A stretch of DNA of 21,519 bases, taken from positions 1-21,519 of the IMG/VR virus record IMGVR_UViG_3300023175_001272; one strand, given 5' to 3'. The notes under the pieces are model-generated. The model searched no databases, had not been told where the DNA came from, and saw only the letters and a list, made by a program, of their open reading frames with translations. Shown one piece after another: positions 2 to 18,009 of this stretch. A program made the position numbers and the translations under genes. The stretch's first letter is position 1, and every line of letters begins with the position of its first letter. The DNA comes from a virus.

Positions 2-394
2 CTGTTGGACGAGGCGTTCCTGGAGCGTTTTGCAATTACCGTTGAGCAGGAGTACCCTACAGCAGCCGTAGAAAAGCGTATCATCCTTAACAAGATGGAC
101 AAGGCTGGCTACAAGGATGAGGACTTTGCTACTCACCTTGTCACTTGGTCTGAGGTTATCCGTAAGACCTTCTTTGAAGGTGCCATAGACGAGCTTGTCA
201 GCACCCGTAGGCTTGAGCACATTGTCAATGCGTATGGTGTGTTCAAGGACAAGCTCAAGGCAATCACCCTGTGTACAAATCGTTTTGACGCTGATACTAA
301 GGCGGCCTTTATTGACTTGTACACTAAGGTTGATCCTTCAAACCCACAGTCCGTTGAGACTGAGGAAACTTCTTCGGACGATGTTGAGTTTTAA
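2..394 (+). CDS. cobS: CobS/MoxR-like AAA+ ATPase, C-terminal part (5' end outside window)
   Basis: The reading frame is open from base 2 and begins inside the protein, so only the last 130 or so residues are present; the TTG at 5 is unlikely to be the real start. The segment LLDEAFLERFAITVEQEYP is the sensor/arginine-finger region seen in MoxR and CobS-type AAA+ ATPases, where a conserved RF precedes a beta strand and a YP turn. It is followed by a helical lid domain and an acidic, Ser/Thr-rich tail ending in DDVEF. T4-like marine phages commonly carry a CobS-like ATPase next to the replication genes, which fits this place upstream of the clamp. CobS proper is a subunit of aerobic cobaltochelatase, but the phage role is unknown. 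Walker motifs lie upstream of the window, so the family call rests on the C-terminal part and context. Confidence 0.7.
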   Translation: MLDEAFLERFAITVEQEYPTAAVEKRIILNKMDKAGYKDEDFATHLVTWSEVIRKTFFEGAIDELVSTRRLEHIVNAYGVFKDKLKAITLCTNRFDADTKAAFIDLYTKVDPSNPQSVETEETSSDDVEF

Positions 395-397
395 TGC

Positions 398-426
398 TTG
401 ACATTGTTCGCAGAAGGTAGTAGTAT
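398..426 (+). promoter_or_regulatory. sigma70-like early promoter
   Basis: TTGACA at 398-403 and TAGTAT at 421-426 are separated by exactly 17 bases. The element is just after the CobS-like stop codon and reads toward the ParB/nuclease gene. The flanking sequence AATGCTTGACATT recurs almost unchanged at the promoter near 17208. Transcription would start near 433, which gives a leader of about 150 bases. Confidence 0.75.
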
Positions 427-467
427 TAAGATATGACAGTGAAGAACAGGTCAAAAAATAGTTTTTC

Positions 468-581
468 GGACATTGATGAGGCCTCAAGTCCTTAAAAAGC
501 AGCCTAGAAAGATCTAGTGTCGAAAACGACAATCCGCCGGGGACTAGCCCGGCATCACAATAACTTTTAAGGAGACATAAT
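468..581 (+). promoter_or_regulatory. structured 5' leader able to hide the ribosome-binding site
   Basis: Four local hairpins follow each other. The first is GGAC-A-TTGA / TCAA-GTCC at 468-491, with one bulged A. The second is CTAGA-AAGA-TCTAG at 504-517. The third is TGTCG-AAAA-CGACA at 518-531. The fourth is GCCGGG-gactag-CCCGGC at 536-553. In addition TCCTTAAAAAG at 489-499 is complementary to CTTTTAAGGA at 564-573, ten pairs with one bulged A. That would close a multibranch structure over hairpins two to four and bury the Shine-Dalgarno sequence AAGGAG (569-574). The first hairpin and this closing helix share bases 489-491, so they exclude each other. A 20-codon open frame (ATG 433, TAA 493-495) ends inside the anti-Shine-Dalgarno strand. 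The structures are seen by complementarity only. Confidence 0.5.
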
Positions 582-1928
582 ATGTCTAATCGCAAGACTA
601 TGTTGTCAGATAACATTTGGTTCGCTGGCACATTAAATCATATTGACGGTATCGCTAAGGTATCAGAACTTCAAAAGCATGAGTCCAATACTTACTTACG
701 AGATTTCGGTGTAACACAAGATGTCTTAGATGACTTCAATAATCTGAAAACTTCTATTGAAAAAAACGGACTACGTGTAGCAATAAAAATCCTCTCAGGC
801 ACTTGGCTTATGATAGGTGGTCACACACGCCTCAAAGCACTAATTGAATTGGGCGTGGATAATATACCTTTTGTATATGTAGACAGGCCTGATGAAATTG
901 TAGAGCTCTTTGGAGAAGAGGGTGAAGTAGATGCAAATCATCCTGCTATTTTACAGATGTTGGCTGATGATAACATTACTGTAAAGGTTGAGACTATTGC
1001 TAGATATAAAGCAGTGCGTTTCACTATGGAGCAGAAGGAAAGGTATGAGGGCCGTGAGTGTACAAACGCAGAGATTCGTACTTTTTGTGGGAATGCTAAT
1101 CTAGCATTTCAAACTTATTTGAAACTTGATCTTTTAGAAAACGGTGGGACATTTAGAGTATACGGAAAAAATAAAGCTCCGGTATATTTAGAAAACCGTA
1201 AAAAGGATCTTTTCCGTGAGCTGGAGCAAGGCAAAGAAGGCAAGACTGTGGCTGGACAATTTAAGTCCATGCTTGAAGATTACAAATTGCTTAACGATCC
1301 TAATTATAAGCTATATGACCGAGATTCAAAACTTGAGAAATTGCTTGAAAAGGTTGACTATGAAACAGTATCAGCTAAAGTGAACGAGGAGATTTCAAGG
1401 ATATCAGATCGTTCCTGGTTTGTGAATACTGATTTAAATTTCAAATCAGCTACTTCACATCATATACTTGTAGATACTTTTGTTACTACGTTTAATGATT
1501 TAGGTTCTAAAGATTATTTCGCAGTAGCCGTTGAAAATCAAGGACGTTATGACATTCACTTTAAATCCGGTGGCACTGTAGTAAATACTTTAGAAGTTAA
1601 GACTACAATTCAGGAAGGGTGGGCATCAGCAACCGAGAAGTATGGATATGCTTTATTGTTCAAGTTTTCTCCAAAGTTAGATCGTTGTTTCCTACACGTT
1701 TCATACTTGGATGTTAATTGGCTCGATAATAAAGGTCAGCGCTTGTGGAAAAAAGGTGGGGGTGTTGCTGCTCTTAGCAAGCGTGACTTGTTAGACTATT
1801 TGAAATATCCTCAGGGTCTTCCTTTTGAGAATAGAAAGGATACTCCTTGGTATGTCCAGGCTATTGGTGACTTGTACTATGAAAACAATAGCAAAGTAAT
1901 TATTTCAACAATACCTTTCGGTGCCTAG
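582..1928 (+). CDS. ParB-like N-terminal domain protein with putative PD-(D/E)XK nuclease C-terminus
   Basis: This is a 448-residue protein with ATG 582 behind AAGGAG at 569-574. Residues 50-105 resemble the ParB/Srx fold: a segment offering values to vary (LRVAIKIL), then GGHTRLKALIELG at 79-91, then IPFVYVD. That box is the nucleotide-binding region of ParB-type CTPase/nuclease domains. The middle is helical and charged. Near the C-terminus, D324 in RYDIHF and E338-V-K340 in LEVKTT are spaced as in PD-(D/E)XK nucleases, followed by alternating beta strands (ALLFKF, CFLHVSYL). The arrangement suggests a DNA-recognition or NTP-binding module joined to a nuclease, possibly acting on host or rival DNA, but no family was identified for the C-terminal half. 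The gene looks more AT-rich than the core replication genes and has its own promoter and leader, as expected for an acquired accessory gene. Confidence 0.65.
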   Translation: MSNRKTMLSDNIWFAGTLNHIDGIAKVSELQKHESNTYLRDFGVTQDVLDDFNNLKTSIEKNGLRVAIKILSGTWLMIGGHTRLKALIELGVDNIPFVYVDRPDEIVELFGEEGEVDANHPAILQMLADDNITVKVETIARYKAVRFTMEQKERYEGRECTNAEIRTFCGNANLAFQTYLKLDLLENGGTFRVYGKNKAPVYLENRKKDLFRELEQGKEGKTVAGQFKSMLEDYKLLNDPNYKLYDRDSKLEKLLEKVDYETVSAKVNEEISRISDRSWFVNTDLNFKSATSHHILVDTFVTTFNDLGSKDYFAVAVENQGRYDIHFKSGGTVVNTLEVKTTIQEGWASATEKYGYALLFKFSPKLDRCFLHVSYLDVNWLDNKGQRLWKKGGGVAALSKRDLLDYLKYPQGLPFENRKDTPWYVQAIGDLYYENNSKVIISTIPFGA

Positions 1929-1937
1929 GAGACATTG

Positions 1938-2213
1938 ATGGCTAAGATTGATTATAAGTTTAACGAAGGGGCTCTGCTTGCAGAGCTCCAGGCTTATGTA
2001 GACGCAACGTACGGTGAGCATTATAGCCGTAACAGGTTTCAGTCCTCGGAGTTTATCATGGACTGTGGACACGGCATGGGATTCTTTCTCGGCAATGTCC
2101 TCAAGTATACTCAGCGATACGGTAAGAAGGACGGTCACAATAGAAAAGACCTACTAAAAATCTTACATTATGCACTTTTAGCTTTGAATGAACATGACCA
2201 GGATTATAAATAA
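1938..2213 (+). CDS. DUF3310-family small protein
   Basis: This 91-residue protein starts at ATG 1938, five bases after AGGAGA (1927-1932); a TTG three bases upstream is a weaker choice. The C-terminal half contains GNVLKYTQRYGKKDGHNRKDLLKILHY, the signature of DUF3310 proteins found in many phages: a GN-x-x-KY-x-x-R motif, a K-x-G, and a K-D-L-x-K helix ending in a Tyr. DUF3310 members are small, predicted cytoplasmic and linked with nucleotide metabolism genes in some phages, but their activity is not established. It lies nine bases after the ParB/nuclease stop and is probably co-transcribed with it. A late-type box overlaps its last codons. Confidence 0.75.
   Translation: MAKIDYKFNEGALLAELQAYVDATYGEHYSRNRFQSSEFIMDCGHGMGFFLGNVLKYTQRYGKKDGHNRKDLLKILHYALLALNEHDQDYK
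2205..2212 (+). promoter_or_regulatory. T4-type late promoter box
   Basis: TATAAATA, the T4 late consensus, overlaps the last codons and stop of the DUF3310 gene. It sits 33 bases before the ATG at 2245, leaving room for a short leader with AGGAG. The octamer can also arise from the codons Tyr-Lys-stop, so coding coincidence is possible. Confidence 0.5.
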
Positions 2214-3574: not shown

Positions 3575-4507
3575 ATGGAACATTTTTTATGGGTAGAGAA
3601 GTATCGTCCCAAGTCTATTGAAGAATGTATCCTGCCCGAATCAATCAAAAGCACGTTCAAGGAATTTCTCTCTAAGGGTGAAGTTCCTAACCTGCTTCTG
3701 TGTGGTACAGCAGGTACAGGTAAAACTACAGTAGCACGAGCCCTGTGTGAAGAACTAGGTAGTGACTATATCATTATCAATGGTTCAGATGAGGGTCGTC
3801 AAATTGATACACTGCGAACTAAGATCAAACAGTTTGCTAGTGGTATGTCTTTTCTCGGCAAGCCTAAGGTTGTAATCATAGATGAGGCTGACTATCTAAA
3901 CAGGGAGTCAGTACAACCTGCTCTCAGGGCTTTTATTGAGTCCTTCTCTGATAACTGTCGCTTCATATTCACTTGTAACTACAAACAAAAGATCATCACT
4001 CCTCTACACAGCAGGACTACGGTGATTGACTTTGGTTCACAAAAGGCAGACAAGGCTAAACTCGCCTCTTCCTTTATGAAGCGTATGCAGTTTATTCTCA
4101 AGGCAGAAGGCGTTGAGTATGTAGACAAGGTGTTGGCTGAACTGTTGATGAAACACTATCCTGACTACAGGAGAATCATAAACGAACTACAGCGATACAG
4201 TAGCTCTGGTGTTATTGACGAAGGTATCCTCAGCAACATAGGTGAGATCAATACAAAAGAACTTGTTTCAGCAATGAAGGAGAAGGACTGGAAGAAGATG
4301 CGTCAGTGGGTTGCTAACAATGTTGAGTCAGACCCTCAAGGTATTTTCAGATACATCTATGACAGTTTGATTCCTGAAGTTGAGACTGTTCCTCAAATGG
4401 TTATACTGATTGCTGATTATCAATACAAGTCAGCGTTTGTTGCAGATCAGGAAATCAATCTGACTGCTTGTCTGACTGAACTGATGGCGAGTATGAAATT
4501 TAAATGA
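3575..4507 (+). CDS. 44: clamp loader large subunit, AAA+ ATPase (gp44)
   Basis: This 310-residue protein (T4 gp44 has 319) loads the clamp onto primed DNA together with gp62. The N-terminus WVEKYRPKSIEECILP is the family signature. Walker A is GTAGTGKTT at 44-52 and Walker B is KVVIIDEAD at 98-106. Sensor 1 is in RFIFTCNYKQKIITPLHSR, and the SRC motif of clamp loaders reads S146-R147-T148, keeping the arginine finger while replacing Cys. The C-terminal part is the helical collar. ATG 3575 is preceded by GGAG with seven bases of spacing. The stop codon overlaps the next gene's start (ATGA), and the partner gp62 is displaced by one inserted gene. Confidence 0.95.
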   Translation: MEHFLWVEKYRPKSIEECILPESIKSTFKEFLSKGEVPNLLLCGTAGTGKTTVARALCEELGSDYIIINGSDEGRQIDTLRTKIKQFASGMSFLGKPKVVIIDEADYLNRESVQPALRAFIESFSDNCRFIFTCNYKQKIITPLHSRTTVIDFGSQKADKAKLASSFMKRMQFILKAEGVEYVDKVLAELLMKHYPDYRRIINELQRYSSSGVIDEGILSNIGEINTKELVSAMKEKDWKKMRQWVANNVESDPQGIFRYIYDSLIPEVETVPQMVILIADYQYKSAFVADQEINLTACLTELMASMKFK

Positions 4508-17748: not shown

Positions 17749-18009
17749 ATGTCTAATGTTACATCTACAACCCAGAGCCAGAAGGTTCTGAACTTCCTCC
17801 GTTCTGGCCAGTCACTGTCTGCTAAGCAGGCAAGCGGTCTGTTCGGTGTTACTTCACTTGGCAAGCGTGTTAGCGAGCTTCGTTCTGAAGGTCACGCTAT
17901 TTACACTAACCGCGCTAAGAACGGTACCACAGTGTATCGTCTCGGTACTCCAAGCCGCGCTATGATTGCAGCTGCTTACCGTGCTGAAGGTTCCTCAGTA
18001 TTTGAGTAA
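17749..18009 (+). CDS. small winged-helix/HTH-like protein
   Basis: This 86-residue protein starts at ATG 17749 behind AAAGGAG. SQKVLNFLRSGQSLSAKQASGLFGVTSLGKRVSELRSEGHAIYTNRAKNGTTVYRLGTPS has the winged-helix pattern: helix 1 (QKVLNFLRSG), helix 2 (SAKQASGLFGV), recognition helix (LGKRVSELRSEG), and a two-strand wing (AIYTNR, TTVYRLG). It would bind DNA, probably as a phage or host transcription regulator. The C-terminal tail (AMIAAAYRAEGSSVFE) is short and helical. Its codons look less AT-rich than those of neighbouring accessory genes, fitting high expression. It has its own promoter and a structured leader. Confidence 0.75.
   Translation: MSNVTSTTQSQKVLNFLRSGQSLSAKQASGLFGVTSLGKRVSELRSEGHAIYTNRAKNGTTVYRLGTPSRAMIAAAYRAEGSSVFE

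Follow-up and report, generated by a model that had tools for sequence, protein, structure and literature searches.

The cargo slot and its gene

The window, the whole stretch of 21,519 nucleotides analysed here, is a fragment of a marine T4-like phage from IMG/VR (21.5 kb). It encodes a clamp homologue (phrog_223) and contains the end of cobS (phrog_249), which has 54–61% identity to cyanophage cobS. Between cobS and a DUF3310 gene lies a hypervariable slot (window positions 395–1937), which holds the cargo gene and, immediately ahead of it, the leader at 433–581 (Table 1).

The N-terminus of the cargo protein is ParB-like (phrog_620 match, E = 2e-8). In an alignment with four distant relatives, residues D324 and E338-x-K340 are invariant, a D..ExK pattern typical of PD-(D/E)XK nucleases. 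AlphaFold models of the protein are of middling confidence. A Foldseek search with the whole chain gives ParB/Noc/KorB as the top matches (E about 0.01), and the C-terminal part alone receives no clear nuclease fold assignment; the PD-(D/E)XK assignment therefore rests on the conserved D..ExK residues, and the protein is referred to as a putative nuclease. Domain search returned no GIY-YIG or HNH match, domain and profile searches recognised no RNA-binding domain, and no homologues of the protein were detected in isolate phages or GTDB.

Table 1 Features of the cobS–cargo gene interval and the cargo gene (window coordinates)
Feature	Position	Strand	Basis
Inverted repeat of 20 positions (about 19 bp) over the cobS stop codon and the −35 box	369–416	+	
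Sigma-70-type promoter of the cargo gene, TTGACA-17-TAGTAT	398–426	+	10/12 match
Micro-ORF ATG...TAA, 20 codons (MTVKNRSKNSFSDIDEASSP), probably incidental	433–495	+	
Competing (anti-anti-SD) hairpin, 461–466/495–500, 468–471/488–491 and 473–476/484–487	461–500	+	folding
Anti-SD strand TCCTTAAAAAG	489–499	+	9 Watson–Crick pairs with 565–573, p = 0.003 in shuffles
Hairpin 1, CUAGA/UCUAG	504–517	+	pair probability 0.8–0.96 in 433–600
Hairpin 2, UGUCG/CGACA, loop AAAA	518–531	+	pair probability 0.8–1.0 in 433–600
Hairpin 3, GCCGGG/CCCGGC	536–553	+	pair probability 1.0
3′ strand of the closing helix, over AAGGA of the SD AAGGAG (569–574)	564–573	+	
Start-codon hairpin AGACAT-AAT-ATGTCT, holding ATG582	573–587	+	
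Cargo gene, ParB-like N-terminal domain and putative PD-(D/E)XK nuclease domain	582–1928	+	phrog_620, alignment, Foldseek

The slot was compared in related phages (L005, L006, L009, L010, L013, L014 and L087, and further in L094, L100, L108, L111 and L114). Phages whose cobS and DUF3310 genes are nearly the same have different slot contents or an empty slot, the contents being ParB-like proteins, unknown proteins of ~400 amino acids, or nothing. Several cargo alleles are ParB-like and 28–37% identical to the protein of the window; others are unrelated. Long inserts mostly have their own TTGACA promoter. Two other cassette types have leaders that are kept with their cargo while the promoter differs (L005/L006 versus L100, and L009 versus L108), so that leader and gene seem to be one moving unit. 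These two leader types, the first lying at 2656–2763 in L006, have CTATAAAA near a small-hairpin loop; their minimum free energies (MFEs) are not significant, yet they stay conserved together with the cargo where the promoters differ. Sister-cassette leaders have no significant structure and their Shine–Dalgarno (SD) sequences are open. Hiding of the SD is therefore not a slot-wide property, and a rule common to the cargo alleles was rejected.

Several further arrangements were seen around the slot. At 4373–4450 of L094, cobS ends early and is followed by the apparent tail of another phage's cobS with its hairpin and promoter, which looks like a cassette imported with its donor flank. Phages with other inserts in the slot (L018, L019, L127, L135, L138 and L147) have, by eye, strong hairpins of dissimilar sequence shortly 3′ of the cobS stop codon. 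A 9-bp hairpin near the start of the DUF3310 coding sequence (window 1968–1989, GGGGCTCTG/CAGAGCTCC) is kept in many relatives (L034, L042, L144, L151 and others); since not all relatives keep it, coding constraint (EGAL..EL) may explain it.

Promoter and upstream inverted repeat

Transcription of the cargo gene is predicted to start at about position 433 (A433). The promoter sequence, TTGACATTGTTCGC.GAAGGTAGTA, is common to the window, L005, L006 and L009, and the alignment with these relatives ends near the predicted start, at about position 430. The leader contains no intrinsic terminator on the + strand and one weak candidate on the − strand. Late-type TTATAAATA promoter motifs occur in the window at 2205, 5664, 6143, 15911 and 20334, all on the + strand; the scan of the window found none within 427–581. 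All five motifs lie close to gene ends.

In the inverted repeat at 369–416, the cobS stop codon falls within the loop and the −35 box within the 3′ arm. The repeat is the best fold of its neighbourhood (z −6 to −7, 0/300 shuffles) and is better structured than the 433–581 leader. Its innermost pairs are retained in all 12 of the cargo cassettes examined, and one pair switches from C–G to U–A between cassette groups. Over the 12 cassettes, the share of cells that pair is 77.6%, and sliding the arms gives no more than 46.9%; shuffle controls for the double changes are only moderate, and both arms are under coding and promoter constraints. None of the other five TTGACA promoters in the window has a repeat of this type. 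The hairpin would occur only on read-through RNA from cobS, and it might insulate the cargo against transcription of cobS.

A predicted junction that closes on the Shine–Dalgarno sequence

The preliminary description of this DNA had the leader folding over its own ribosome-binding site, with 489–499 pairing with 564–573 across three small hairpins. This architecture is borne out in detail. Residues 489–497 (TCCTTAAAA) form nine contiguous Watson–Crick pairs with 565–573 (TTTTAAGGA), A498 is bulged and G499 pairs with C564, and the enclosed hairpins pair 504–508 with 513–517, 518–522 with 527–531, and 536–541 with 548–553. The SD, which had been described as covered, has AAGGA inside the helix and its final G outside.

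The module 489–573 has an MFE of −29.5, the shuffled value being −14.8 (z −5.4, 0/300). Without the closing helix, the three hairpins are significant by themselves (z −4.2), and they form in every context folded. The closing helix is worth about 7 kcal/mol (MFE −29.5 versus −22.5), and with the hairpins held fixed, 0/1000 shuffles of 489–499 reach the native fold energy. A 9-bp Watson–Crick match to the SD arises in 0.3% of shuffles, or in 8.8% with G–U pairs allowed. When GC-corrected MFE was scanned in 85-nt segments, the module ranked among the best 0.5% in the window without being the single best. Computation shows 489–573 to be a compact four-way-junction RNA closing on an SD-pairing helix, and the leader 433–581 is a real, unusually structured RNA.

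The start-codon hairpin has a pair probability of about 0.5–0.99 in transcripts that start at or before 433, with the exception of 300–620 (0.21). A start codon within a small AGACAT..ATGTCT palindrome is found at two genes of the window, at 573–587 and near 17749.

A competing hairpin is predicted to balance the junction

An alternative hairpin at 468–491 had been put forward as a competitor for bases 489–491. The hairpin exists and is larger than described: it is extended by the pairs 461–466/495–500 and thereby captures the whole anti-SD strand. The 461–500 hairpin and the 489–573 junction share this strand, and the two folds are therefore close in energy. By itself the hairpin is unremarkable (z −1.4).

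Because the larger hairpin takes the anti-SD strand, the SD of the intact leader is not unusually hidden. Its opening energy in 433–620 is 3.3 kcal/mol, compared with a shuffled mean of 3.75 (189 of 300 shuffles were at least as high), and is ordinary at 20 °C too; among 30 gene starts in the window, the accessibility of the cargo gene's SD is mid-range. Of the claim that the leader hides its own SD, what stands is that the closing helix can sequester it; in the full transcript the SD is no more hidden than in shuffled leaders or at other genes of the window.

Removal of the 5′ part shifts this balance. For transcripts from 433, the probability of the SD helix is 0.1–0.65, varying with the chosen 3′ end, and SD opening costs about 3.3–4.9 kcal/mol. 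With 433–469 removed, the probability is 0.9–1.0 in all segments tested; for transcripts from 470 it is 0.94–0.99, and the opening energy rises to 5.8–7.3 kcal/mol. When 433–488 alone was shuffled, the SD was less open than in the native sequence in 194 of 200 cases, so that relief of the block is a specific effect of the upstream part. The balance of the two folds persists at 10–30 °C; an RNA thermometer was rejected, as the balance shifts little from 10 to 37 °C. The strongest evidence for a switch, which is plausible but unproven, is this two-state balance, itself computed from a single sequence.

The micro-ORF

A 20-codon frame runs from ATG433 to TAA493–495, with its stop inside the anti-SD strand, as had been noted together with the idea that a ribosome finishing it would free the SD. 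The same description had conceded as its weak point that ATG433 falls at the predicted transcription start, which it does (A433), and no SD precedes ATG433. An ATG frame of at least 10 codons that ends in the anti-SD strand is present in 11% of shuffles, and one with any start codon in 27%; a stop codon is almost forced there, because the anti-SD strand carries CCTTAA. A ribosome simulated on 475–508 reduces the SD helix probability to 0, and SD opening is 3.0–3.4 kcal/mol, compared with 3.3–3.6 kcal/mol in the free RNA (433–620/660). Since these values are nearly equal, a ribosome parked there would change little, and the proposed release of the SD is not supported.

Translational attenuators of the erm and cat type have a leader peptide. 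Like them, the leader combines an anti-SD strand with hairpins that compete and with a short frame that ends in that strand. Unlike theirs, its frame has no SD, begins at the predicted transcription start and has counterparts in 11% (ATG) to 27% (any start) of shuffles. The attenuation logic is accordingly unsupported, and the micro-ORF is probably incidental.

Distribution of the leader

The leader is carried by three near-identical contigs, namely the window, L002 and L003; along the leader, the latter two do not differ from the window, and over 2.4 kb they have 2 and 6 differences. No homologue was found in isolate phages or GTDB genomes, and IMG/VR searches by protein, helix pattern and hairpin pattern returned no leader beyond the window and the two near-identical contigs. 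A covariance model of the leader, run on 95 loci and 16 whole records, matched only the window and near-identical contigs. Two hits of 15.9 bits were set aside; both belong to near-identical phages, and in L173, which was inspected, the hit overlaps a coding ORF. A second occurrence of the element was found neither elsewhere in the window nor in the 16 related records. No Rfam family matched in the leader at gathering or relaxed thresholds, the best match being a chance hit on the other strand (E = 1.1), and ARAGORN detected no tRNA or tmRNA in it.

Comparison with known leaders

On early transcripts of I-TevI, segB and mobE, the ribosome-binding site (RBS) is buried in RNA structure; a late promoter yields transcripts that do not contain the 5′ strand of the structure (PMC2988022; PMC3014915). 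RBS-sequestering structures have been reviewed for I-TevI, I-TevII, I-TevIII, segB and Aeh1 mobE (PMC2988022). The leader resembles those of these T4-type homing endonuclease genes in belonging to a nuclease-type gene of a T4-like phage, with a helix that can cover the SD, and in that the transcript can also originate from the upstream gene. Its 9-bp helix covers AAGGA (p = 0.003), but net SD opening is ordinary. It differs from them in several respects: the leader has no late promoter, unlike mobE, segB and I-TevI, and there is therefore no late transcript lacking the 5′ strand; its fold is a three-hairpin junction with a competing upstream hairpin, rather than a single stem; and the cargo product is ParB/PD-(D/E)XK-like, unlike the GIY-YIG and HNH homing endonucleases. 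By analogy, the leader may at most work like the mobE, segB and I-TevI hairpins, and we do not class it among them.

In Aeromonas phage 25, the free-standing nuclease gene seg43(25) has a very stable RNA directly upstream of its RBS, with a role that is unproven (PMC2988022). Both leaders place a stable structure near the RBS of a nuclease-type gene; the seg43(25) hairpin excludes the RBS (PMC2988022), whereas the closing helix of the leader includes it. A multi-helix junction that closes on the SD is also a likeness to riboswitches and other Rfam RNAs, from which the leader differs in matching no Rfam family.

Interpretation

On the basis of the folding models, we tentatively propose that 433–581 controls translation of the ParB/putative-nuclease cargo gene in cis and would act as a two-state gate, a reading we consider the best of those compared and a serious possibility. 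The 461–500 hairpin, formed first during transcription, would keep the SD available, and RNAs with the 5′ part missing, processed or occupied would form the junction and close the SD. Expression of a DNA-cutting protein may thereby be kept low or timed, and the micro-ORF would be unnecessary to the gate. It is rather doubtful that the leader represents a previously undescribed two-state phage RNA, in which junction and hairpin, sharing the anti-SD strand, would gate translation of the ParB/PD-(D/E)XK protein, and which would serve as the regulatory half of an exchangeable leader-and-cargo cassette in marine T4-like phages.

Alternatively, the leader could be an mRNA-stability or 5′-processing element, in which the hairpins protect the transcript or guide its processing and the overlap with the SD is secondary. 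The autonomy of the three hairpins and the ordinary SD accessibility agree with this; the energy contributed by the closing helix, which no shuffle matches, and the 9-bp complement to the SD do not, and we judge such a role unlikely. Two measures of the fold, the z-score of the module and the p-value of the helix, count against a passenger leader with no regulatory role, whose hairpins would have been left by recombination in the hypervariable slot and whose SD complement would be due to chance. The recombination-prone slot, the sister cassettes without such structure and the confinement of the leader to one lineage in the collections searched would all be expected of a passenger. Its two other copies have no changes in the leader, a weak argument against a passenger with only 2 and 6 changes per 2.4 kb. 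Taken together, we regard a passenger as quite unlikely.

Protein-mediated control was also considered. The T4 proteins gp43, RegA and gp32 act as regulators that bind RNA operators, and the leader could likewise be an operator for the ParB/nuclease or another phage protein, which would stabilise the SD-closed form. Retention of leader with cargo under changed promoters in two other cassette types is expected under co-evolution of leader and product, and there is a precedent in T4 gp43, which represses its own mRNA via a hairpin and its RBS (PMC3014915). Against this autoregulation, no RNA-binding domain was recognised in the cargo protein and the element is found nowhere else in the window or the 16 related records, and we find it very unlikely. 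Attenuation by the micro-ORF, with a ribosome at the stop codon masking the anti-SD strand, is most improbable: the frame is there, its stop lies in the right strand and covering 475–508 abolishes the SD helix, but 11–27% of shuffles carry such a frame, its ATG lies without an SD at the predicted transcription start, and the parked ribosome brings little gain in SD opening.

If the two-state translational control element is real, the T4 habit of keeping phage nucleases translationally quiet would extend to ParB/PD-(D/E)XK-type cargo in marine phages, and a junction-type switch would work without a late promoter. The comparison of cassettes suggests a swappable slot after cobS, in which regulatory leaders may travel with their genes.
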